A stretch of 42,259 nucleotides of DNA, taken from NCBI GenBank assembly GCA_017882715.1, contig JADGOY010000013.1:1-42259 (forward strand), written 5' to 3'. Position numbers and translations under genes: made by a program. The notes beneath the pieces were generated by a model, which worked only from the letters and a program-made list of their open reading frames with translations, made no database searches and had not been told where the DNA came from. Below, in pieces: positions 8,995-35,855 of this stretch (position 1 is its first letter; each line of letters begins with the position of its first letter). Source of the stretch: Nakamurella sp. GTDB taxonomy: Bacteria > Actinomycetota > Actinomycetes > Mycobacteriales > Nakamurellaceae.

Positions 8995-10971
8995 GTGGCC
9001 AATCATCCACTCGATTCCCTCAGCGCGGAGGAGTTCCGGCGCACCACGGCCGCGTTGCGGGCCGGCGGGCAGCTGACGCCGACGCGCCGATTCGCCTCCA
9101 TCACCCTGGACGAGCCGGCCAAGGCGACCGTGCTGGCCTGGCGCGCGGGCGACCTGATCGAGCGCCGGTCGCTCAGCGTGCTGTGGGACCGGGCGGACAA
9201 CAAGACCTACGAAGCGGTGGTGGCGCTGGCCGATTCGGGCGATTCCGTCTTCTCCTTCGATCACATTCCCGGGGTGACCCCGAACTTCACGGTGGACGAA
9301 TGGCACGACTGCGAGGTCGCGCTGAAGAAGGACCCGACAGTGGTCGCCGCGCTGGCCGAGCGGGGCGTGACCGACCTCGATCTGGTGCTCATCGACGTGT
9401 GGACCTACGGGCACGCGGTGATGCCCGAGCGGTGGCGCGACCGCCGGCTCGGCTGGGCGGACGTCTGGGTGCGATCCAGCCCCACCGGCAACCCCTACGC
9501 GAACCCGTTGTCCGGGCTGAAGTTCATCGTCGACATGAACACCATGGAACTGCTGGACATCGACCGGGCGCCCGTCGTCGACCCGGCGCCGGTGATGGGC
9601 GAGTACGAGCCGGATCTGGTGCCCGGTCAAACCCTTCGCACCGACATCAAGCCGCTGCACATCACCCAGCCGGACGGCCCGTCGTTCGAGATCGACGGCA
9701 ACGTCATCCGCTGGCAGAACTGGAGCTTCCGGCTGGCCTTCAATTACCGCGAGGGTCCGGTGATCCATCAGGTCACCTACGACGACCACGGCGCCGTGCG
9801 GGACATCGCGTACCGGATGTCCTTCGCCGAGATGATCGTGCCCTACCGCGATTCCAGCTTCGACCACTACCGGCGCACCGCCTACGACATCGGAGAGTGG
9901 GGGCTGGGATACATGACCACCTCGCTCGAGCTGGGCTGCGACTGTCTGGGTGAGATCCGTTATGTCGATGCCACTCTCACCGACAGCCTGGGCGAGCCGT
10001 TCGACATCAAGAACGCGATCTGCCTGCACGAAGAAGACAACGCGGTGCTGTGGAAGCACATCGATTCGATCAACGGTCGCGCCGAGGTGCGCCGGCAGCG
10101 CCGGATGGTGGTGTCCGTCCACGCCACCGTGGCCAACTACGAGTATCTGGTGTACTGGCGCTTCTACCAGGACGGCAACATCGAGTGCGAGGTGCGGGCC
10201 ACCGGGATCATGGTCACCACGCCGTATGCGGAGGATGATCCGGCGCCCCGCACCGGCACCGTGGTCGACCAGCGCACCTATGCCCCGTTCCACCAGCATT
10301 TCCTGGTCGCGCGGCTGGACCTGGATGTCGATGGGCGCACCAACACGGTGCTCGAGATCGATTCGCAGGCCGAACCCATCGGCCCGGACAACCCGCACGG
10401 GCTGGCGCTGACGACGAAGGCGACGCCGATCGCGTCCGAGTCCGAATCCGCCCGCGACTTCAAGTGGGAGACCCAGCGCGGTTGGAAGGTGATCAACCCC
10501 GAGAAGCTCAACGGGCTGGGCACCCCCGTCTCCTACAAGTTGGTGCCCGGCGCGGCGTTCCCGGTGATGATGGATCCGTCGTCCCCGCAGTACCTGCGGG
10601 CCCCGGTGATGGGTCACACGCTGTGGGTGACCCGTCAGCATGACGACGAGAAGTGGCCCGCCGGAACGTATCCCACGCAGAGTGCCACGGACGACGGGCT
10701 GACCAGGTGGATCGCCGACGACGAGCCGCTGCTGTCAACGGATCTCGTGCTGTGGTACGTCTTCGGCATCCATCACATCACCCGGCCGGAGGAGTGGCCG
10801 ATCATGGCGGTTGATGCGGTGTCGTTCTGGCTCAAGCCCTTTGGGTTCTTCGACCGCAACCCGTCGCTGGATGTGCCGCCGCAACCGGGGCACGGCCGCG
10901 CCGTGGTGGAAGGTGCCCCGGAACACGCGACGGGGCACGGCACGGCGGGTGACGGGCCGAGCTGCCATTGA
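8995..10971 (+). CDS. tynA: Copper-containing primary amine oxidase
   Basis: A 658-residue copper/topaquinone amine oxidase, oxidising primary amines to aldehydes with release of ammonia and hydrogen peroxide. The cofactor Tyr is residue 382 in the NYEY motif and the catalytic base is Asp298 in YDIGEWG; both numbers equal those of the Arthrobacter globiformis enzyme as I remember it. Copper ligands are His433 and His435 (FHQHF) and a His in the GIHHITRPEEWP motif (593/594). No signal peptide is visible, so it should be cytosolic, as in related actinobacterial enzymes. The GTG at 8995 has AGGAG upstream. Its stop lies ten bases from the convergent methyltransferase gene. Substrate (for example phenylethylamine, tyramine, histamine or a polyamine) is not decided by sequence. 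Confidence 0.93.
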   Translation: MANHPLDSLSAEEFRRTTAALRAGGQLTPTRRFASITLDEPAKATVLAWRAGDLIERRSLSVLWDRADNKTYEAVVALADSGDSVFSFDHIPGVTPNFTVDEWHDCEVALKKDPTVVAALAERGVTDLDLVLIDVWTYGHAVMPERWRDRRLGWADVWVRSSPTGNPYANPLSGLKFIVDMNTMELLDIDRAPVVDPAPVMGEYEPDLVPGQTLRTDIKPLHITQPDGPSFEIDGNVIRWQNWSFRLAFNYREGPVIHQVTYDDHGAVRDIAYRMSFAEMIVPYRDSSFDHYRRTAYDIGEWGLGYMTTSLELGCDCLGEIRYVDATLTDSLGEPFDIKNAICLHEEDNAVLWKHIDSINGRAEVRRQRRMVVSVHATVANYEYLVYWRFYQDGNIECEVRATGIMVTTPYAEDDPAPRTGTVVDQRTYAPFHQHFLVARLDLDVDGRTNTVLEIDSQAEPIGPDNPHGLALTTKATPIASESESARDFKWETQRGWKVINPEKLNGLGTPVSYKLVPGAAFPVMMDPSSPQYLRAPVMGHTLWVTRQHDDEKWPAGTYPTQSATDDGLTRWIADDEPLLSTDLVLWYVFGIHHITRPEEWPIMAVDAVSFWLKPFGFFDRNPSLDVPPQPGHGRAVVEGAPEHATGHGTAGDGPSCH

Positions 10972-10980
10972 GCGGGCTGG

Positions 10981-11793
10981 TCAGGACGGGTGGGCCAGGA
11001 TCTCGCCGTGCGGGACCAGGAACCACCCGTCGTCGGCGGTTGCCCACGCTCGCCAGGCCTGGCTCATGTCCTGCAGTTCGTCGACGGTGGCCCGACCGCT
11101 GACGACCGCCTGGTCGGCCAGCGCCGACTGCACGATCCGGTCCGCCCACATACCTCCCCACCAGGCCCGGTCGGCCGGCGTCGCGTAACACCAGACGCCG
11201 GCCGACGCCGTGGTGTCGGCCAGCCCGGCGGCGTGCGCCCAGGCCAGCAACCGGCGCCCGGCATCCGGCTCCGCGTGGTTGTCCCGTGCGCATGCCCGGT
11301 ACAGCGCGAGCCAGGCGTCGAGTCGCGGGTCCTGCGGCCACCAGGTGAATGCCGCGTAGTCGGCGTCCCTGGAGGCGATGACGCCGCCGGGCCGGCACAC
11401 CCGGGCCAGTTCGAACAGGGCGGCGACAGGGTCGGTGAGGTGTTGCAGGACCTGATGGGCGTGCACGACGTCCACGCTGTCGTCCGGCAGGTCGAGCGCG
11501 TAGACGTCACCGACGTCGAAGGTCACCGTGCCGACCCCGGCGGCGGTGGCCGCGGCCCGTGCCTCGGCCACCGCCTCGGCGGCCCGGTCGATCCCGATGA
11601 CCCGACCCGGTGCCACACGCCGGGCCAGATCGACGGTGATGGTGCCCGGCCCGCAGCCGACGTCGAGCACGGTTTGGCCGGGGCGCAGGTGCGGCAGCAG
11701 GTACCCCGCGGAGTTCTCGGCGGTGCGCCGGCGATGCGAGCGGAGCACGCTCTCCGCATGGCCGTGCGTGTAGGTGTCCTCGATCCTGGTCAC
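10981..11793 (-). CDS. SAM-dependent methyltransferase (class I, UbiE/MenG-like)
   Basis: A 270-residue methyltransferase. Motif I is VLDVGCGPGTITVDLA (about 40-55), the acidic loop is IGIDRAAEAV, then VTFDVGDVYALDLPDDSVDVV and the post-motif HQVLQHLTDPVAAL, followed by RVCRPGGVIASRDADY. This is the methyltransferase-11/UbiE-type core with a longer C-terminal helical part containing two Trp-rich patches. Substrate unknown; related actinobacterial proteins are often only called methyltransferase domain protein. The GTG at 11793 gives a protein beginning with the typical THGH-SVLRSH stretch; the ribosome site is poor. It diverges from a truncated oxidoreductase gene 45 bases away. Confidence 0.88.
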   Translation of the reverse strand: MTRIEDTYTHGHAESVLRSHRRRTAENSAGYLLPHLRPGQTVLDVGCGPGTITVDLARRVAPGRVIGIDRAAEAVAEARAAATAAGVGTVTFDVGDVYALDLPDDSVDVVHAHQVLQHLTDPVAALFELARVCRPGGVIASRDADYAAFTWWPQDPRLDAWLALYRACARDNHAEPDAGRRLLAWAHAAGLADTTASAGVWCYATPADRAWWGGMWADRIVQSALADQAVVSGRATVDELQDMSQAWRAWATADDGWFLVPHGEILAHPS

Positions 11794-11838
11794 CAGGTCA
11801 GTCTGGCCGACGATAGGTCGCAGATGAAGGGGCGATGG

Positions 11839-12045
11839 ATGCGGGCAGCGGTGATCGGGACCAACTGGGGCCGGCTGCACATCCATGCCCTGCGCCGGTC
11901 CGGCGTCCACGTGGCAGCGGTCTGCGGCGGCCCGGCCGACCACGATCGGACCTGCCAAGTTGCCCGCGAGCACGGCATCGACCCGCTCAGGCGGCCGCCA
12001 CGCATGTGCGGGGCGGCCCGGACCCGCTGGCTGAAGGTGCACTGA
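11839..12045 (+). pseudogene. Gfo/Idh/MocA oxidoreductase, N-terminal fragment
   Basis: The first 50 or so residues (MRAAVIGTNWGRLHIHALRR, then VHVAAVCGG and VAREHGIDP) match the NAD(P)-binding start of Gfo/Idh/MocA dehydrogenases, which are normally about 330-400 residues. Similarity then stops and the frame ends after 68 codons. AAGGGG lies six bases before the ATG at 11839; an in-frame ATG at 11824 is also possible. Nothing resembling the remaining Rossmann half or the C-terminal domain follows, so this is a truncated remnant, probably left by a deletion. Confidence 0.65.
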
Positions 12046-12501
12046 AATGCGGTGGCCGGTTCGTGGACGCACCCCCGTCTGGCAACCCGGGACATCGGCT
12101 GGATCAGCGAAAAATTCGGTGGTCCCGCCGGTCTCGCAGCAGCGGCGAAGACGTGGGCGCGGGTCCCATATGGTCGCATCGCCCCCGTTCTTCCCGAGGA
12201 TCTGCCTGGCGGACCCGAGAGTCTCCGCGGCCGTCCACATCTGCAGCACGGCAGTTGCGCCTTCCACCACGGACTTCGTGGTCCCACCAGACTCGCCGGA
12301 CCTCATGATTCTGTCCTGCGGCATCAATGGTCGCCGGTCAGTTAAGGTCACAGCGTGGTCAGGGGGGCCGAAGTCACTGTGGTTGCCTGCTGAGGGGTTC
12401 GGCACTGCGCAGCCGCAGCAACTCGGTACCGACGAATTGGGTTGTTGGTGGCCAACCGTCCGGCGACAAGAGAGCTCGACGGACGCATTGGGGGGACCGG
12501 C
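12046..12501. other. Intergenic region before the kinase; imperfect direct repeat
   Basis: No convincing gene is present in these 456 bases. Two 20-base segments at 12118-12137 and 12277-12296 match at 16 of 20 positions (core GTGGTCCC-CC-G-CTCGC), separated by about 140 bases. They could be traces of mobile-element ends beside the truncated oxidoreductase. TAAGGT at 12343-12348 resembles a -10 element for the downstream kinase, about 150 bases from its start; no clear -35 was seen. Confidence 0.4.
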
Positions 12502-13821
12502 ATGACGGTGTGCCTGCTGGGGGACCGGTATCAACTCGGCGACACCTTCGGGCGGGGCGGCATGTCTGTGGTGCATCGGGGCCGCGACGTGCGCATGGGA
12601 CGACAAGTCGCGATCAAACTCCTGCGGTCCGAACTCGCGCGTGATCCGTGCTTGCAGGTGCGATTCCGCCGCGAGGCGCGAAACGCCGGGACGCTCAACC
12701 ACCCGGCCATCGTGGCCGTGTACGACGCCGGAGAGATGCCGGTCGACGGCGGGGGCGTTCCCTACATCGTGATGGAGTACGTCGACGGCGAGACCCTTCG
12801 CGAGGTGCTGACGCGGGACGGGCCACTGCCTCCGCGCCGGGCAATGCTGGTGGTCGCCGACATCTGTGCCGCGCTGGATTTCTCCCATCGGCACGGAATC
12901 ATTCACCGCGACATCAAACCCGGCAATGTCATGCTCGATCGTGCGGGCGCAGTCAAGGTGATGGATTTCGGGATCGCCCGTGCGGTCACCGACGGCGATG
13001 CGACGATGACGTCCGCGTCAGCGACGATCGGAACGGCCCACTATTTGTCGCCGGAGCAGGCGCGCGGACTCACGGTGGACGCCCGCACGGACGTCTATGC
13101 GACGGGCTGCGTCTTGTACGAGTTGCTGACCGGTCTTCCGCCGTTCGTCGGCGACTCCCCGGTCCAGGTGGCCTACCGGCATGTCCGGGAGGCTCCGCAA
13201 GCGCCGAGCGCGCAGACACCCGGACTGGCCCCGGAGTTGGACACGATCGTCCTGAACGCCTTGAACAAGAATCCGCTGAACCGTTATCAGTCGGCTGCCG
13301 AGATGCGCTCCGATCTGCTGCGCGCCTGCTCCGGTCAGGCATTGCACGCCACCGCGGTGTTGTCCAACGAGGAGCGGCACGAATTGATGGGCGCCGCGGC
13401 AACGCACGAGGACGCCGCAGGGTCCGCGCCACTGCTTGCGCCACTGCTTGCGCCACCCGTGTTCGGTGCATCGGAGTGGGTCCGGCAACCCGAGACGGAG
13501 AATCGGCCGAAACGCGGCTGGGCACTGGCAGGCGCGGGCGCCCTGGGCCTCGCCCTTGCCCTGGCGGTCTGGTTGACGTTGCGCGTCATCATTGCGCCGT
13601 CGGTGCCGCACCTGGTCGCCGTGCCCGACCTGTCCGGGATGACGCTCTCGCAGGCCACCGCCCAACTCCAGGTCAGTCGACTGGCGCTGGGCGCGATCAG
13701 CCCGATCGAGTCGGCCGCGGCGAACAAGGACAAGGTCGTCGTTCAACGTCCGTCCAGCCAGACCGAGGTCTCTCAGGACTCCACGGTGAATCTCGAAATG
13801 GGCACCGTGGCGGGACATTGA
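12502..13821 (+). CDS. Membrane Ser/Thr protein kinase with one PASTA domain (PknB-like)
   Basis: A 439-residue Hanks-type kinase. The N-terminal kinase domain has the Gly loop FGRGGMSVV, Lys39 in VAIKLL, Glu58, HRDIKPGN (Asp137), DFG (Asp155) and the activation end GTAHYLSPEQARG, so it looks fully active. A Pro/Ala linker includes a 12-base direct repeat encoding LLAPLLAP. One membrane span (about 340-364) and a single extracellular PASTA domain (372-434) follow, starting VPDLSGMTLSQATAQL. PknB proper has three or four PASTA repeats, so this is a short relative, probably sensing a cell-envelope ligand. The ATG at 12502 follows a G-rich run; an open frame extends to 12442. Confidence 0.93.
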   Translation: MTVCLLGDRYQLGDTFGRGGMSVVHRGRDVRMGRQVAIKLLRSELARDPCLQVRFRREARNAGTLNHPAIVAVYDAGEMPVDGGGVPYIVMEYVDGETLREVLTRDGPLPPRRAMLVVADICAALDFSHRHGIIHRDIKPGNVMLDRAGAVKVMDFGIARAVTDGDATMTSASATIGTAHYLSPEQARGLTVDARTDVYATGCVLYELLTGLPPFVGDSPVQVAYRHVREAPQAPSAQTPGLAPELDTIVLNALNKNPLNRYQSAAEMRSDLLRACSGQALHATAVLSNEERHELMGAAATHEDAAGSAPLLAPLLAPPVFGASEWVRQPETENRPKRGWALAGAGALGLALALAVWLTLRVIIAPSVPHLVAVPDLSGMTLSQATAQLQVSRLALGAISPIESAAANKDKVVVQRPSSQTEVSQDSTVNLEMGTVAGH

Positions 13822-14090
13822 TCCCTGGTAGGTCAGCGCGACCGACCCGGCGACATGCGGCTGGGCATCATCGCGGCGTTCGGCGAAGGAGTCGCCGTGA
13901 CGGCGATTGCGACCCAGGTTCGGGACTAGGCTGACGGTGACCAGCGAGCCGCCAATGGTCGGCTGCGTTCGACCCGGACCCGTCGCGCGTCTGGTCGGGC
14001 GCATTGTGACGTGTGTTTGCAGGCGTAACCGGTGAGAAATCACGTTCCGGTCTGGACGCCGTCCCCGTGGTGTGGAGCCGGGGGTGGGCG

Positions 14091-14801
14091 ATGACGCCCG
14101 AGCGGGAGGCGGTGCAACAGACACAGCAGGCCATCCGGGCGGGAGGGCTGTGTGATCCGTGTCTGCGCCTGCTACCCGTCACGGGCGTTGCGGTCTCGAC
14201 GCTGAGCGGACCGATCCACAGCGACACGGTCTGCGCCAGCGATGGCGTCGCGTTCGGTGTCGACGAGTTGCAGTTCGATCTCGGTGAGGGTCCGTGTTGG
14301 GAGGCGTTCGCCTCCCGGCGCGCCGTGCTGGTACCGGATCTGTGGTCGGATCCGCAGCCGCGGTGGCCGGTCTTCGGCACGGCGGTGCGGGAAACCGCGG
14401 CTCGCGCGATATTCGCGTTCCCGCTGTATGTGGGCGCGACAGGGGTGGGTGTATTGGACCTGTACCGCACCGCGCCCGGTCCGTTGGATGCGCCGTCGAT
14501 CCACGATGCCCGGGTACTGGCAGACACCTTGGCCGCCGAATTGCTGCGCCGGGTGCTGTCCGCCCAGGACGTGGACGTGATGGATGGCGCGTCCGCAAAC
14601 CGGCCGAGTCCATGGCGGGACCATCCGCAGGATCGCCGGCAGATCCATCAGGCCACCGGAATGCTGATGGGTCAGCTCGATCTGCCGGTGGGCGCCGCGT
14701 TCGCCCGCCTCCGCGGGCACGCGTTCGCCACCGGGGTCACGGTGGCGAACGTGGCGGCCGCGGTGGTGTCCCGCAGGCTCCTGGTGCCGGACGACTCTTG
14801 A
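14091..14801 (+). CDS. GAF-ANTAR regulator
   Basis: A 236-residue protein with a GAF domain (about 15-160; FDLGEGPCWEAFASRRAV, SDPQPRWPVFG) and a C-terminal ANTAR domain (about 180-230; RQIHQATGMLMGQLDLPVGA). It should control transcript elongation by binding nascent RNA hairpins in response to an unknown ligand or modification. The ATG at 14091 is preceded by a GGGGGTGGG run; the frame is open to 14013. It is the first of two overlapping GAF-ANTAR genes; its TGA shares a base with an ATG of the next frame (TGATG at 14799-14803). Confidence 0.87.
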   Translation: MTPEREAVQQTQQAIRAGGLCDPCLRLLPVTGVAVSTLSGPIHSDTVCASDGVAFGVDELQFDLGEGPCWEAFASRRAVLVPDLWSDPQPRWPVFGTAVRETAARAIFAFPLYVGATGVGVLDLYRTAPGPLDAPSIHDARVLADTLAAELLRRVLSAQDVDVMDGASANRPSPWRDHPQDRRQIHQATGMLMGQLDLPVGAAFARLRGHAFATGVTVANVAAAVVSRRLLVPDDS

Positions 14802-30010: not shown

Positions 30011-30064
30011 GTGGCCTCGGCCACGGAGGCAGGCCACATCACAATGATCGCCACATCACAATGA
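30011..30064 (+). CDS. 17-codon upstream frame created by a tandem duplication
   Basis: GTG 30011 is preceded by a strong ribosome site (GGGGGAG, seven bases upstream) and encodes a 17-residue peptide ending SQ-TGA, whose stop overlaps the ATG of the ATP-grasp gene (ATGA at 30061-30064). The frame contains the two copies of GCCACATCACAATGATC. If one 17-base copy is removed, the frame runs straight into the ATP-grasp gene. So this is probably the ancestral N-terminus, now separated by a frameshift, and translation of the main gene may depend on restart at 30061. Confidence 0.5.
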   Translation: MASATEAGHITMIATSQ

Positions 30065-30066
30065 TC
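30033..30066. repeat. Perfect 17-bp tandem duplication at the operon start
   Basis: GCCACATCACAATGATC is present twice without a gap (30033-30049, 30050-30066). Seventeen is not a multiple of three, so gain or loss of one copy switches the reading frame across the start of the ATP-grasp gene. Confidence 0.9.
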
Positions 30067-31101
30067 ACCGTCATGGTCACCGGAGCCGGCGGTCCTGCCG
30101 GCGTGTCCGTCATCCGTTCCTTGCTCGCACGCGGCGATGTCCGGATCATCGCCTCCGACATGGATCCGTGGGCCAGCGGGCTGTACCTGGTGCCCGCCGG
30201 TCAGCAGTGCCTGGTGCCGCCCGGACTGGCGCCCGGATTCGTCGACGCCGTCCTGAAGCTCTGTGATCAATTCCGGGTGGACGTGCTGTTCCCGACGGTG
30301 GACGTCGAACTGCCGTTGCTCGCGGCCAGAGCGGCCGAGTTCGTCGCGGCCGGCACCGCGCTGGCCTCACCCAGCCTGTTCACGCTGGAGACCTGCCTGG
30401 ACAAATACGCCCTGGCGCAGCATTGCGCCGGGTCGTCGCCGGTGCCGCGGACCGAATTGCTGGACGCGGCCGCTGCTCGGGGGCGGCAGTACCCGGTCAT
30501 CGTCAAGCCGCGGCGTGGAGCGGGATCCCGCGGCGTCCGGGTGATCGAATCCGAAGCCGAGTTGCTGGCCGTTGGCACCGATCCGGATCTGATCGTCCAG
30601 GACTTCCTCCCCGGTCAGGAGTACTCGGTCGACGTGCTCGCCGACCTGGACGGCCATGTGATCGCCGCAGTCCCGAGGCTGCGGGTGCGGGTGGATTCCG
30701 GCGTGTCGGTGGCCGGTGTGACCGTGCACGACGACGAACTCGAGTCGGTCGCCTCGGCCGTCGCGTCGGCCGTCCGGCTGACCACCGTTGCCAACGTCCA
30801 GCTGCGACGGGACGCCGAGGGGCATCCGGCACTCCTGGAGGTGAACCCCCGATTCCCGGGAGCGATGCCGTTGACGATGGCCGCCGGGGTGGACATGCCG
30901 TCGTTGCTGCTCGACCTCATTCTCGGGCGGGAGGTCCCCGATCATGTCGATTTCTCCGAGCTCGGTGTGGTCCGTTATCTCGATCATGTGATCGTCCCGC
31001 TCGACCAACTCCTCGAAGGCGCCGAGGTGGATTACCTGCCGACAGTTGCCACGGCTCAGCGAGCGCACCGGGGCAATTCGATCCTGCTCGAGCAACCATG
31101 A
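30061..31101 (+). CDS. ATP-grasp protein (CarB/PylC-like), first gene of operon
   Basis: A 346-residue ATP-grasp enzyme. A Rossmann-like N-domain starts VTGAGGPAGVSVIRSLLARG and includes SDMDPWASGLYLVP. The ATP-grasp core has VIVKPRRGAGSRGV, LIVQDFLPGQEYSVDVL and the metal site LLEVNPRFPGAMPLT. Such proteins form an acyl phosphate and join it to an amine. Substrate unknown. The ATG at 30061 lies in the second copy of a 17-base duplication and overlaps the stop of a short upstream frame; an ATG at 30073 is also possible. Its stop overlaps the next start (ATGA). Context with a PHP hydrolase and a polysaccharide synthase suggests an envelope-modifying role. Confidence 0.85.
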   Translation: MITVMVTGAGGPAGVSVIRSLLARGDVRIIASDMDPWASGLYLVPAGQQCLVPPGLAPGFVDAVLKLCDQFRVDVLFPTVDVELPLLAARAAEFVAAGTALASPSLFTLETCLDKYALAQHCAGSSPVPRTELLDAAAARGRQYPVIVKPRRGAGSRGVRVIESEAELLAVGTDPDLIVQDFLPGQEYSVDVLADLDGHVIAAVPRLRVRVDSGVSVAGVTVHDDELESVASAVASAVRLTTVANVQLRRDAEGHPALLEVNPRFPGAMPLTMAAGVDMPSLLLDLILGREVPDHVDFSELGVVRYLDHVIVPLDQLLEGAEVDYLPTVATAQRAHRGNSILLEQP

Positions 31102-31946
31102 CATTCGACCGTCGCCTGGACTTGCTCGCCGATCATCACGTGCACTCCACGTTCTCCGACGACGCACAGAGTACCCTGGCCGAGAATGTCAGTGCCGCAA
31201 GGGCTCTGGGGTTACGCGAGCTGAGGTTGGTCGACCACGTCCGGACGTCGACGACGTGGGTCCCCGAATTCCTCGGGGCAGTCGCGGCCCTGGATCGGCT
31301 TGCTGATGCCGGCCCGGTGGCGGTGCTGTCCGGGGTCGAGGCCAAGATCCTGGACGCGCGCGGCACGCTTGACCTCCCGCCGGAGATCGCGACCGGGATG
31401 CTGCGGGTGGGCCGGATCCTGATCGCCGACCACCAGTACCCGGGAATCGACGGCCCCCTCTCGCCAGGGACCGTGCTGGAGCGACGGGCCGCGGGCTGGC
31501 CGGCGTCGGACGTGCTGGACGGGCTGGTGCACGCGACAATCCTGGCGATGAAGAGCGTGGACAATGCGCAGCTGGCACATCTGTTCTCGCTGCTGCCCAA
31601 GATCGGACTGACCGAGGACGACCTCGATGACGATCACCTGACGACGCTCGCCTCGGCCGCCGCCGCGACCGGCACCGCGGTGGAGGTGAACGAAAAGTGG
31701 GGATGCCCCGGACCCCGATCCTTACGTGTCATGCGGGAGGCGGGAGTCCGGCTGGTGGCCTCGACGGACAGCCACCAGTGCGGCGACGTCGGCCGCTACC
31801 GCAGGGTGGTGGCGCTGGCCGATGAGGCCGGGCTCGGCACGATTCCCGGCGACAAGGAGAGCACCCCTGCCCCCTGGTCCGACCCGATCTCCGGTGACCG
31901 CCTGGACAACAGAGCTGGGCAGGTCGCGGATCCCGCCTCGCGATGA
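31098..31946 (+). CDS. PHP-domain metal-dependent phosphoesterase
   Basis: A 282-residue PHP (polymerase and histidinol phosphatase) domain protein. All metal-site motifs can be followed: HHVHSTFSDDA near residue 12, LVDHVRT, SGVEAKIL, IADHQYPG, VEVNEKWG and the final STDSHQCGDVG. A trinuclear metal centre is expected, removing phosphate from a small molecule, as HisJ does for histidinol phosphate. No his genes are near, so the substrate is open, perhaps a sugar or lipid phosphate used by its operon partners. Both ends overlap neighbours by four bases (ATGA), showing tight coupling with the ATP-grasp and GT2 genes. Confidence 0.87.
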   Translation: MTFDRRLDLLADHHVHSTFSDDAQSTLAENVSAARALGLRELRLVDHVRTSTTWVPEFLGAVAALDRLADAGPVAVLSGVEAKILDARGTLDLPPEIATGMLRVGRILIADHQYPGIDGPLSPGTVLERRAAGWPASDVLDGLVHATILAMKSVDNAQLAHLFSLLPKIGLTEDDLDDDHLTTLASAAAATGTAVEVNEKWGCPGPRSLRVMREAGVRLVASTDSHQCGDVGRYRRVVALADEAGLGTIPGDKESTPAPWSDPISGDRLDNRAGQVADPASR

Positions 31947-33424
31947 GTGCCGTCGCCGACGCCCTGGTCGTCGTTCTCGTGGCCATGGTGGTCCTCGGCG
32001 TGGTCCCGGTGATGGCGGGGCTGTACCAATACCTGCTCGTGCCGATCCATGCCGTGCGCAATCACTACGGCAAGGCCGCGCCGTACCTGCCGCGGGTGGC
32101 GGTGCTGGTGCCGGCCTGGAACGAGGGCGCGGTGGTCGGCCTGTCGATCGACCGGCTGATCGGGTTGGAGTACCCGCCGGAGTCGTTGCGGGTGTATGTC
32201 GTCGATGACGCGAGCACCGACGACACCCCCGAGGTGATCCTGCAGCGCGCCGCACAGTACCCCGGCCAGGTCTTCCACCTGCGCCGGGACAAGGGCGGGG
32301 AGGGCAAGGCGCACACCCTCAATCACGGCATTTCCATCCTGCTGGACGAGGACTGGATGCAGGCGCTGCTGATCATGGACGCGGACGTGATCTACCAGCC
32401 GGATTCGTTGCGCCGGATGACCCGGCATCTGGCCGATCCCCAAGTCGGGTCGGTGACCGCGTACATCCGGGAGGGCAGCACGCACCCGAAGTTCATGACC
32501 CGGTTCATCGGATACGAGTACGTCGCGGCCCAGGCCTGCGCCCGACGCGCACAGAACGTGCTGGGCGCGCTGGCCTGCCTCGCCGGCGGCGCGCAGCTGC
32601 ATTCCCGGCAGAACCTGGTGGCCATGGGCGGCCGGATCGACACCACCACCCTGGCCGAGGACACCGTCACCACCATCACCACCCAGCTGCAGGGCCGGCG
32701 GGTGGTCTTCGAGCCCTACGCGGTGGTGCTCGCCGAGGAACCGGAATCGGTCGGCGCGCTCTGGAAACAGCGGCTGCGGTGGGGCAGGGGCAACGTCCAG
32801 GTGACCAAGCGGTTCTCGCACCTGTGGTTCCACCCGTGGAAGCACCGCCAGCTCGGCGGGGTGTCCTTCGGCTTGATCTGGTTCTCCGTCCTGCTGCTCC
32901 CGGTGACCATGATCCTTTCCTCGGCCGCGCTGGTCGGCCTGTACTTCCTCGACAGTGAGATGGCCGCAAGGGTTTTCCAGTACACCTGGTTCATGGCCGG
33001 CGCGACCTATCTGTTCCTGACGGCGATGACCATCCAGGTCGACCTGCCGACCGGCCGCCGGAGCTGGCGGGAGGCGGTGTTGTTCCCCGGCGTCATCTCG
33101 TTGCTGGTGATGATGACGGCCTTCGAACCCGGTCTGCTCAACGAGAAGCTCCCCGCGGTTTTCGGGTTGCGCCTGACGGCGTTGGGCGACGCCGTCTGGA
33201 CCCTCGCGGTGTATTCGTGGATCTCGCTCTGCATGGTCGCCGCGTGGGGGGTGAAAAGGGTGGAATCCACCCGTTTCGGCGCGGTGCTGACGCCACTGCT
33301 GCTCTACGTGGTCGGCTACGGACCGCTGCTCTGCGCCATCACCTTCGACGCCTACATCAAGGAGTTCCGCGGCGCGGCGCAGGTCTGGGACAAGACCGAG
33401 AAGGTCGGCAGGGTGATGGCGTGA
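31943..33424 (+). CDS. Processive family 2 glycosyltransferase (BcsA/HasA-like membrane synthase)
   Basis: A 493-residue membrane glycosyltransferase. An N-terminal span (about 5-30) precedes the GT-A domain: VLVPAWNEG, VVDDAST, the DxD motif IMDADVIY, LAEDT (catalytic base) and the QRLRWGRGN form of QxxRW. Four or five membrane spans follow (about 310-470). This is the layout of processive synthases such as cellulose or hyaluronan synthase, which polymerise a sugar and push it through the membrane. The sugar is not predictable here. No BcsB or PilZ domain is nearby. The ATG at 31943 overlaps the PHP stop, and its own stop overlaps the next gene's GTG. Confidence 0.9.
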   Translation: MSAVADALVVVLVAMVVLGVVPVMAGLYQYLLVPIHAVRNHYGKAAPYLPRVAVLVPAWNEGAVVGLSIDRLIGLEYPPESLRVYVVDDASTDDTPEVILQRAAQYPGQVFHLRRDKGGEGKAHTLNHGISILLDEDWMQALLIMDADVIYQPDSLRRMTRHLADPQVGSVTAYIREGSTHPKFMTRFIGYEYVAAQACARRAQNVLGALACLAGGAQLHSRQNLVAMGGRIDTTTLAEDTVTTITTQLQGRRVVFEPYAVVLAEEPESVGALWKQRLRWGRGNVQVTKRFSHLWFHPWKHRQLGGVSFGLIWFSVLLLPVTMILSSAALVGLYFLDSEMAARVFQYTWFMAGATYLFLTAMTIQVDLPTGRRSWREAVLFPGVISLLVMMTAFEPGLLNEKLPAVFGLRLTALGDAVWTLAVYSWISLCMVAAWGVKRVESTRFGAVLTPLLLYVVGYGPLLCAITFDAYIKEFRGAAQVWDKTEKVGRVMA

Positions 33425-33648
33425 GTGATCGTGCCGGTGCCGGTGCCGGTGCCGGTGGCGGTGCTGATGCCCAGGCCGTGGACCGGGGTGAGAACGCCGA
33501 TCCGAACGACCCGGATGCACCGACGCCGGAGCGACTGCGCGCGGAGATCCGGGACGATCGCCGCGCCGAGCGCTACCTGATACGGGCGGGGCTGATCGCT
33601 GCGCTGGTCGTGGCGATCGCGTTGTGGTACCGGGCCCGCTACGGGTGA
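33421..33648 (+). CDS. 75-residue C-terminally anchored membrane protein
   Basis: The last gene of the four-gene operon, starting at GTG 33421 inside the GT2 stop (GTGA). The product has an Ala/Gly-rich start encoded by four GTGCCG hexamers (33431-33454), an acidic and then charged helix (TPERLRAEIRDDRRAERYLI) and one hydrophobic span (about 53-70; AGLIAALVVAIALWY) at the C-terminus. The bulk is therefore cytoplasmic. I do not recognise a family; a companion subunit of the glycosyltransferase is the obvious guess from the coupling. Hexamer copy changes would stay in frame. Confidence 0.75.
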   Translation: MSDRAGAGAGAGGGADAQAVDRGENADPNDPDAPTPERLRAEIRDDRRAERYLIRAGLIAALVVAIALWYRARYG

Positions 33649-34736: not shown

Positions 34737-35855
34737 TCAAGCCTCGCCGAACTCCTCGAACTTGATCTGCTCCTCCAAGACGCCGTCGGCCAGCAGCCGC
34801 TTGACGCTCGCTTCCACCATCGCGGGCGATCCGCAGACGAAGACGTCGTGGTCCGACCAATCGCCCTGGTCGGCGGCCACCTCGCCGATCAACCCCTGTG
34901 GCCCGTTCCAACGAGTGTCATCGGAGATGGCCGTGACCACCGACAGCCAGCCGTACCGGTTGTCGAGTGCGGCCAGAGCGTCGCGGTCATAGGCTTCCCG
35001 CACGCTGCGCGCCCCGAAGAACAGGTGTGTGCGCCGCCTCCCGGTGCCGGCGAGTTCGGCGATCATCGCCTTCATCGGTGCCAGACCGGTGCTCCCGGCC
35101 ACCATGAGCAGGGGCCGATCCGACGCCGGTTGGAGTGTCATCCGCCCGAAAGGCGGTCCGAGGCGGAGCCTGTCGCCACGCTGGCAGACGCGCACCAGCG
35201 CGGTGGACACCGGCCCACCGGGGATCAGCCGAGCGTGCAACTCGATGTCCACGCCGCCGGGGGCATTCGCCGGCGTGAAGAATCGCCACTCTCTCGGGCG
35301 CGCGAGTGATGGCTCGACGGCCAATGATTGACCGGCCAAGTACGGCACCGGCGTCTGAGTGCGCACGGTGAGCACCGCGATGTCGAACGTGCGGTGGTCC
35401 ACGTCGAGGATCTCCGCGTCCCAGAAGGCGGGCTCGGATGCGGCCACTTTCTCGGCGGCACCCGACATCGCACCGGCGACGATCCGGTAGGCCGCGGCCC
35501 AGTCGGCGCCCAGTTTGTCCGTCCAGCCTGCTCCGCTGAAATGACGAAGGGTCGCCAGCAGCGCCTCGCCGACCGCTGGGTAATGCGCTGTCAGCGTCCC
35601 GAATTTCCGGTGATCTCGGCCCAGATCCTCCAGGTAGGGCACGAGTTGCCCGGCGTTGTCGACGTCGGTGACGATGCGAACGAGCGCGCCGACCAGCCGG
35701 TCGCGTTGCTTGGTCATCCCCGGCGGGAACATGTCCCGGGTTTCTGGATAACGCAGGAACAAGTAGCTGTAGAAATACAGCGCGACCTCGTCGCCGCCGT
35801 GCGCGGCGACGGCAGCGAAGTTCTCCTTCAGCGCGGCAGTATCGATGTCCGTCAT
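34737..35855 (-). CDS. Flavohemoprotein-like globin-reductase (possible type II)
   Basis: A 372-residue fusion of a globin domain (about 1-135) and a ferredoxin-reductase-like FAD/NAD domain. Haem-site residues are Tyr29 (FYSYLF, B10), Gln50 (E7 region) and proximal His82 (GRDHRKFG). The reductase has a changed FAD stretch, REWRFFTPANAP, in place of the usual RxYS motif. The NAD site VAGSTGLAPMKAMI and the end VFVCGSPAMVEAS follow. Canonical enzymes turn NO into nitrate; divergence in the FAD stretch and overall sequence suggests the type II class known from mycobacteria, with other electron partners. The ATG at 35855 would overlap the stop of the intact form of the upstream truncated globin gene. 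Confidence 0.88.
   Translation of the reverse strand: MTDIDTAALKENFAAVAAHGGDEVALYFYSYLFLRYPETRDMFPPGMTKQRDRLVGALVRIVTDVDNAGQLVPYLEDLGRDHRKFGTLTAHYPAVGEALLATLRHFSGAGWTDKLGADWAAAYRIVAGAMSGAAEKVAASEPAFWDAEILDVDHRTFDIAVLTVRTQTPVPYLAGQSLAVEPSLARPREWRFFTPANAPGGVDIELHARLIPGGPVSTALVRVCQRGDRLRLGPPFGRMTLQPASDRPLLMVAGSTGLAPMKAMIAELAGTGRRRTHLFFGARSVREAYDRDALAALDNRYGWLSVVTAISDDTRWNGPQGLIGEVAADQGDWSDHDVFVCGSPAMVEASVKRLLADGVLEEQIKFEEFGEA

Follow-up and report, generated by a model that had tools for sequence, protein, structure and literature searches.

Five synthase-dependent exopolysaccharide systems, those for cellulose, acetylated cellulose, poly-N-acetylglucosamine (PNAG), alginate, and Pel, are described in the available part of PMC7112194. 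According to the same part, Gram-negative synthase operons combine a synthase and a co-polymerase or regulator with a tetratricopeptide repeat (TPR) protein and an outer-membrane pore. Here, these systems are compared with an operon found in a 42,259-nucleotide stretch of Nakamurella sp. DNA (contig JADGOY010000013.1, positions 1 to 42,259; the window). The operon encodes an ATP-grasp ligase, a PHP-family phosphoesterase, a membrane glycosyltransferase of family 2 (GT2), and a small membrane protein. In relatives, its first gene is usually REC-PIG-L, in which a response-regulator receiver domain is fused to a PIG-L deacetylase of N-acetylglucosamine (GlcNAc) type, and receiver proteins and a histidine kinase often come after the set. 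We think it somewhat probable that the window genes make up the biosynthetic half of a synthase-dependent exopolysaccharide system linked to two-component signalling. The four window genes are as follows:

30061..31101, plus strand: ATP-grasp ligase of PRK12767/ATPgrasp_Ter type, 346 amino acids (Pfam, NCBIfam, profile and fold match to 2pn1, conserved catalytic residues)
31098..31946, plus strand: PHP-family metallo-phosphoesterase, 282 amino acids (Pfam, predicted model, fold neighbours, metal-ligand residues)
31943..33424, plus strand: membrane GT2 glycosyltransferase with QxxRW, polymer-synthase type, 493 amino acids (Pfam, NCBIfam, hydropathy)
33421..33648, plus strand: small single-helix membrane protein, 75 amino acids, proposed GT2 subunit (open reading frame, alignment, hydropathy)

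How does this set compare with described systems? As in the five systems, at least as the available part of PMC7112194 presents them, a synthase, an accessory membrane subunit, and a TPR protein share an operon, which passes between lineages. In contrast to them, a two-component receiver and kinase are found where they have a cyclic di-GMP (c-di-GMP) receptor. Neither the ligase nor the PHP protein is on their list, and PMC7112194 mentions neither ATP-grasp nor a response regulator. The PNAG synthases (PgaABCD and IcaADBC) share with the present operons a membrane GT2 with QxxRW, a small membrane partner, deacetylation, and, in Gram-negatives, a TPR-containing and putatively outer-membrane partner. 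However, the window GT2 falls far short of the PNAG synthase model (125 bits, cut-off 422.3), ATP-grasp and PHP are added, and the small protein has one helix and belongs to no known family. The deacetylase, a PIG-L domain joined to a receiver, is not of the PgaB type, which is a polysaccharide deacetylase.

In Campylobacter jejuni, the ATP-grasp enzyme Cj1438C couples (S)-serinol phosphate to glucuronate as an amide, and the HAD enzyme Cj1435 carries out the dephosphorylation (PMC11800379 and PMC11800397, available parts). As far as these parts go, amidation of the HS:2 capsule resembles the operon in that successive steps on the growing glycan are carried out by a GT2, an ATP-grasp ligase, and a phosphatase. 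By contrast, its ATP-grasp enzyme is TupA-like, its phosphatase is of the HAD type, its capsule is exported by an ATP-binding cassette system, and there is no deacetylase. Mycothiol and bacillithiol (MshA-MshB-MshC and BshA-BshB-BshC) are likewise made by glycosyl transfer, PIG-L deacetylation, and amide or amine ligation. Their glycosyltransferases are soluble and their cysteine ligases have other folds, whereas the operon has a membrane GT2 and an ATP-grasp enzyme.

A literature search, with most subscription papers beyond reach, found no description of the gene set or of a receiver-PIG-L response regulator, and no paper combining ATP-grasp with PIG-L, or ATP-grasp and LmbE with polysaccharide. 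The window holds a GT2 synthase operon with an apparently undescribed, and widespread, set of partners.

Conservation and linkage of the gene set

The four window genes are joined by four-base overlaps (ATGA at 31098, ATGA at 31943, and GTGA at 33421), at exactly the positions given in the original prediction. Such overlaps prove little alone; the operon stands above chance because its order is conserved. A near sample comprised 61 genomes, the window's own and 60 relatives, with orthologues called at E < 1e-160 for GT2 and E < 1e-70 for ATP-grasp. A GT2 orthologue is present in ten of these genomes, including that of the window; the identical ten have ATP-grasp, and all ten have REC-PIG-L. 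G043 and G018 have only more distant ATP-grasps (E < 1e-20). ATP-grasp, PHP, and GT2 follow each other in this order on one strand in all nine relatives fetched. At the level of the class, GT2 is found at E < 1e-50 in eight of 394 genomes and is adjoined by ATP-grasp in seven of them; in the eighth, a draft of about 410 contigs, ATP-grasp and PHP lie on a separate contig from GT2.

A wide sample was taken from named genomes searched with the GT2 alignment, which gave at least 553 relatives. The best 80 loci were used, including L133, L151, and L162, which repeat genomes G384, G223, and G065. Most are from Actinomycetota (Cellulomonas, Microbacterium, Blastococcus, Leucobacter, Leifsonia, and others), and six are from Gammaproteobacteria, Bacteroidota, and Rhodothermales. 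By gene clustering, 72 of the loci hold ATP-grasp, 71 REC-PIG-L, 68 PHP, 58 a family of kinase length, and 40 a receiver family. The order REC-PIG-L, ATP-grasp, PHP, GT2 is found in 64 loci (63 in the plain form and one with an additional REC-PIG-L). The 16 remaining loci have GT2 alone (five), REC-PIG-L/ATP-grasp/GT2 (four), ATP-grasp/PHP/GT2 (three), or one of four single patterns, and several of these are on short contigs (e.g., L100, L107, L139, L144, and L158). Thus, the order of the window genes is kept in other genomes, and the four genes are one conserved unit.

The original prediction of a four-gene unit for an amide-decorated glycan therefore holds for the unit itself and for its parts, namely a GT2 of processive type, a ligase of amide-forming type, a phosphoesterase, and a small membrane protein. 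It did not describe the complete set, as it missed the receiver-PIG-L fusion, the kinase, and the receivers. REC-PIG-L, a protein of 320-393 residues, precedes ATP-grasp in eight of the nine fetched relatives and is a divergent neighbour in the ninth. In G008 and G015, the operon extends to two receiver proteins and then to a histidine kinase.

In some genomes the set is split. The REC-PIG-L gene of the window genome (G000) is on contig C172 (L076:813-1877); its product is 71% identical to the G012 copy, and two receiver genes lie behind it. The kinase gene (L181, contig C4), whose product is 64% identical to the G006 kinase, starts 16 bases from the contig end. The REC-PIG-L/receiver block and the kinase sit at the ends of these two contigs, and we infer that C172 and C4 abut. 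In four genomes of Leifsonia where GT2 stands alone, REC-PIG-L, ATP-grasp, and PHP are together elsewhere (4/4); in the two of these loci with genes listed, a small protein, a receiver, and a kinase-length gene of 591 or 592 amino acids come next. These splits indicate that the parts of the set stay in one genome even when they are unlinked.

Do the genes merely travel together as an island, each serving a separate pathway? The distribution is patchy (among 16 other genomes from this genus, five have a GT2 orthologue), and in each of its four genes the G009 version resembles that of other families, which indicates horizontal transfer. However, the co-occurrence holds where the set is split, the genes overlap and keep a constant order across phyla, and protein distances correlate between the families (Spearman 0.75 to 0.82, with no species control). 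Mere co-travel is, in our judgement, very unlikely.

Active sites, the small protein, and possible export

Residue conservation was counted in 72 gene sets holding REC-PIG-L, ATP-grasp, PHP, and GT2, the window genome being one set and the duplicate records L089 and L099 having been removed. The catalytic motifs of the three window enzymes, which had been described as intact, proved near-invariant across these sets. The GT2 exceeds the Pfam cut-off for Glyco_tranf_2_3 (102.8 bits), and D88, D89, D146, D148, E239, D240, Q276, R279, and W280 are present in 72/72 sets. A simple hydropathy scan gives hydrophobic segments at 7-25, 307-325, 378-396, and 448-466. Thus, the DD, DxD, ED, and QxxRW motifs of a processive GT2 synthase are all found, with membrane helices on both sides. 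PgaC_IcaA is the top NCBIfam model for the window GT2; judged on member count and on best E-value, it is also the top model for 27/27 GT2s scanned. At its score, the window GT2 was rejected as a PgaC equivalog. It reached the cut-off of no synthase model, which answers the question, raised with the original prediction, of whether it groups tightly with a known synthase.

The ATP-grasp protein is over the Pfam cut-off for ATPgrasp_Ter (114.3 bits), and K149, R157, E260, N262, and R264 are found in 72/72 sets. Its top match in both sequence and fold, along its whole length, is PRK12767/2pn1 (profile E 3e-43; fold E 1e-23, TM 0.75). The title of Protein Data Bank entry 2pn1 gives only a carbamoyl-phosphate-synthase-like annotation, and so provides no clue to the substrate. 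A CarB or carbamoyl-phosphate function was rejected, since its basis would be the name alone. The fold and the nucleotide and magnesium residues are those of an amide-forming ATP-grasp enzyme, and the protein would be expected to form an amide bond. ATP-grasp relatives of about 40% identity, all of one family (f31), occur in L175, L176, L177, and L180 with no GT2 or PHP alongside. An initial search of the relatives' contigs with ATP-grasp alone recovered no relative.

The PHP protein (Pfam PHP, 31.6 bits, over the cut-off) has the metal-ligand histidine, aspartate, and glutamate residues of a PHP phosphoesterase: H16, D22, H47, E81, H112, H161, D224, and H226 are present in 72/72 sets and H14 in 68/72. 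The nearest folds to its predicted model (pLDDT 88) are YcdX, the PHP domain of PolX, and histidinol phosphatase.

The gene for REC-PIG-L lies outside the window, and the features of a PIG-L/LmbE deacetylase were found in the relatives. Two relatives score 81.1 and 77.9 bits with Pfam PIG-L against 28.2, one of the two showing PIG-L only, and Response_reg reaches 99.9 bits in a REC-PIG-L relative. The deacetylase motifs AHPDD and HQDH are in 72/72 sets. The receiver has the residues of a response regulator, with D62 and K112 in 66/72 sets each. The closest matches of the PIG-L domain are BcZBP (2ixd) and BshB (6p2t), and the best named deacetylase model, for a Marinicella protein, is BshB1 (105.9 bits against a cut-off of 182.5).

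The 75-residue protein has one hydrophobic segment (53-69), which is preceded by the motif E-[IL]-x-x-[DN]-x-R-x-E-R-x-L. When the small proteins are aligned on the Glu ahead of the helix, Asp or Asn is at -4 in 74/74 and Glu at -8 in 67. A small one-helix frame overlaps the GT2 stop in 9/9 fetched relatives. In the wide sample, a small hydrophobic protein follows GT2 in 74 of the 80 loci, 66 of them starting in a four-base overlap with it, so that the synthase is accompanied in 74 loci by a predicted accessory inner-membrane subunit. No Pfam or NCBIfam family matches this protein; the nameless family can serve as a marker when genomes are searched for the system.

Loci outside Actinomycetota bear on both PHP and export. 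L136, L145, L165, and L141 lack PHP but hold the other three genes, REC-PIG-L, ATP-grasp, and GT2; the Parafilimonas genome (L141) gave no PHP match at E < 1e-8, and no PHP was found within the 17 kb of sequence of L167. PHP is accessory, being absent from the gammaproteobacterial operons and from that of Parafilimonas. In five of the six loci (L136, L145, L165, L167, and L158, the last starting inside GT2), a TPR protein directly follows the set, and TPR was found in 5/5 scanned; Parafilimonas has no TPR gene directly after the set. By eye, the TPR proteins have a hydrophobic N-terminus and a barrel-like C-terminus (beta-moment z 0.5 to 2.2, which is weak). Their resemblance to the partners in Gram-negative synthase operons supports export of a polymer. 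In Serinicoccus, the small protein is followed by a protein of about 600 amino acids whose N-terminus is signal-like (L155:9607-11433), and L163 and L164 have genes of similar length at this place. Pfam gave no family for the genes of about 600 and of 246 amino acids behind the Serinicoccus operon, nor for L089:9794-10168.

Could the product be something smaller than a polymer? The set of glycosyltransferase, phosphatase, PIG-L, and ligase parallels mycothiol synthesis, and the PIG-L domain is closest to the GlcNAc-malate deacetylase of BshB type and to BcZBP. A similar sequence might thus make a small glycolipid or glycoside, with GT2 moving one sugar to a lipid. We consider this unlikely, as the GT2 has QxxRW and is nearest to polymer synthases, the small membrane partner is conserved, and TPR proteins are found in five loci outside Actinomycetota.

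It has also to be asked whether the ATP-grasp enzyme works on another part of the chain, as in the C. jejuni capsule. It would then join a phosphorylated amine to a uronic acid in the chain, PHP would dephosphorylate the product in place of HAD, and PIG-L would work on another sugar of the repeat. Cj1438C and Cj1435 are a direct biochemical precedent (PMC11800379 and PMC11800397, available parts), and HAD occupies the place of PHP in a sister cluster (L080). However, no enzyme supplying uronic acid or amine phosphate was seen in the listed operons, where most flanking genes are unannotated, several operons keep ATP-grasp without PHP, and the window enzyme is of a different type from TupA-like ATP-grasp. 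The probability that we give this explanation is decidedly low.

Proposed mechanism and further contexts

How might the proteins of the exopolysaccharide system, the reading favoured here, work together? GT2 and its small subunit would polymerise a hexosamine-type sugar and pass the chain through the membrane. Because REC-PIG-L is in most relatives' operons, the likely chemistry is no longer mere decoration but deacetylation and then ligation. In the cytosol, PIG-L would strip the N-acetyl group from an N-acetylhexosamine (HexNAc) precursor or from the nascent end, ATP-grasp would add another acyl group (an amino acid or other carboxylate) to the freed amine, and PHP would take the phosphate off a phosphorylated substrate or product. 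The kinase would phosphorylate the receiver domains, including the one fused to the deacetylase; the signal is thus proposed to act on the enzyme and not on transcription.

A bolder proposal, offered tentatively and with more doubt than confidence, is that of a sixth synthase-dependent exopolysaccharide system, ranging from Actinomycetota to Gammaproteobacteria and Bacteroidota. It would make a re-acylated (for example, aminoacylated) hexosamine polymer, and phosphorylation of the receiver would switch the fused cytosolic deacetylase. If this is true, one more polymer class stands beside the few described, with relevance for bacteria from soil, plants, and the sea, about whose matrix little is known, and a response regulator with a sugar deacetylase as its output would allow a signal to edit a glycan without transcription.

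Several points weigh against the exopolysaccharide reading. Its product, substrate, activity, and export are predictions from the genes, and the similarity of GT2 to PgaC is far under the cut-off. The receiver is degenerate in about six of the 72 sets, and ATP-grasp homologues occur without a GT2 orthologue in 21 of the 394 class genomes. The barrel half of the TPR proteins, which match no barrel family, is weakly supported. There is no c-di-GMP receptor to be seen in the operon: Pfam and NCBIfam found no PilZ or similar domain in the window proteins, the other loci not having been scanned for c-di-GMP regulators, and an EAL gene was found only beside the G006 block. Moreover, G004 and G006 have REC-PIG-L, receivers, and kinase without orthologues of ATP-grasp or GT2. 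In the PIG-L tree, the window genome copy groups with that of G006 (87/94, below the mark for strong support and with a long-branch warning); thus loosely placed, it may serve another operon. The blocks of G004 and G006 and this grouping suggest that the block may have other partners too.

In G006, which is of the same genus, genes for a cellulose-synthase-like glycosyltransferase, STAS, HATPase-REC-SpoIIE, REC-PIG-L, two receivers, a kinase, and EAL form one run (L077:5750-14862), which is a second glycan context for the deacetylase. The REC-PIG-L/kinase blocks of G004 and G009 (L078, about 10432-13717; L079, about 10703-14411) stand beside a divergent run of genes in which, by eye, there is one more PIG-L-like and one more GT2-like gene. 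The sister cluster L080 (1179-8204) has a distant GT2, ATP-grasp, UDP-GlcNAc 2-epimerase, HAD phosphatase, and PIG-L, and points to HexNAc chemistry; L178 and L179 hold further sister clusters with distant GT2, ATP-grasp, and PIG-L.

Borders of the operon and neighbouring genes

The start of the operon carries one further feature:

30033..30066, plus strand: perfect tandem repeat of 17 bases in the start region of the ATP-grasp gene (read from the sequence)

The first copy of the repeat opens a frame of six codons (ATG at 30044), whose TGA overlaps the ATP-grasp ATG at 30061 (ATGA). The repeat may act as a coupled leader or may have arisen by recent duplication. The unit had been placed at 30011-33648; its end stands, but the ATP-grasp gene begins at 30061, so that a start at 30011 takes in the leader. 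Among the NCBIfam matches listed for the four window proteins (for ATP-grasp, the best 25 of 39), none is at the cut-off.

The upstream neighbour, 305 bases away, is a dihydroxy-acid dehydratase by NCBIfam. A convergent neighbour that had been called DivIVA-like scores 21.1 bits with Pfam, where the cut-off is 28, and 20.2 against 22 with DivI1A_domain, and the gene had no tblastn match in nine 20-kb loci of relatives. With scores under the cut-offs and no conservation, a link between DivIVA and the operon was rejected, and this neighbour is outside the operon unit. On the minus strand, at 34737-35855 of the window, lies a flavohaemoprotein-like gene with globin and FAD/NAD domains.

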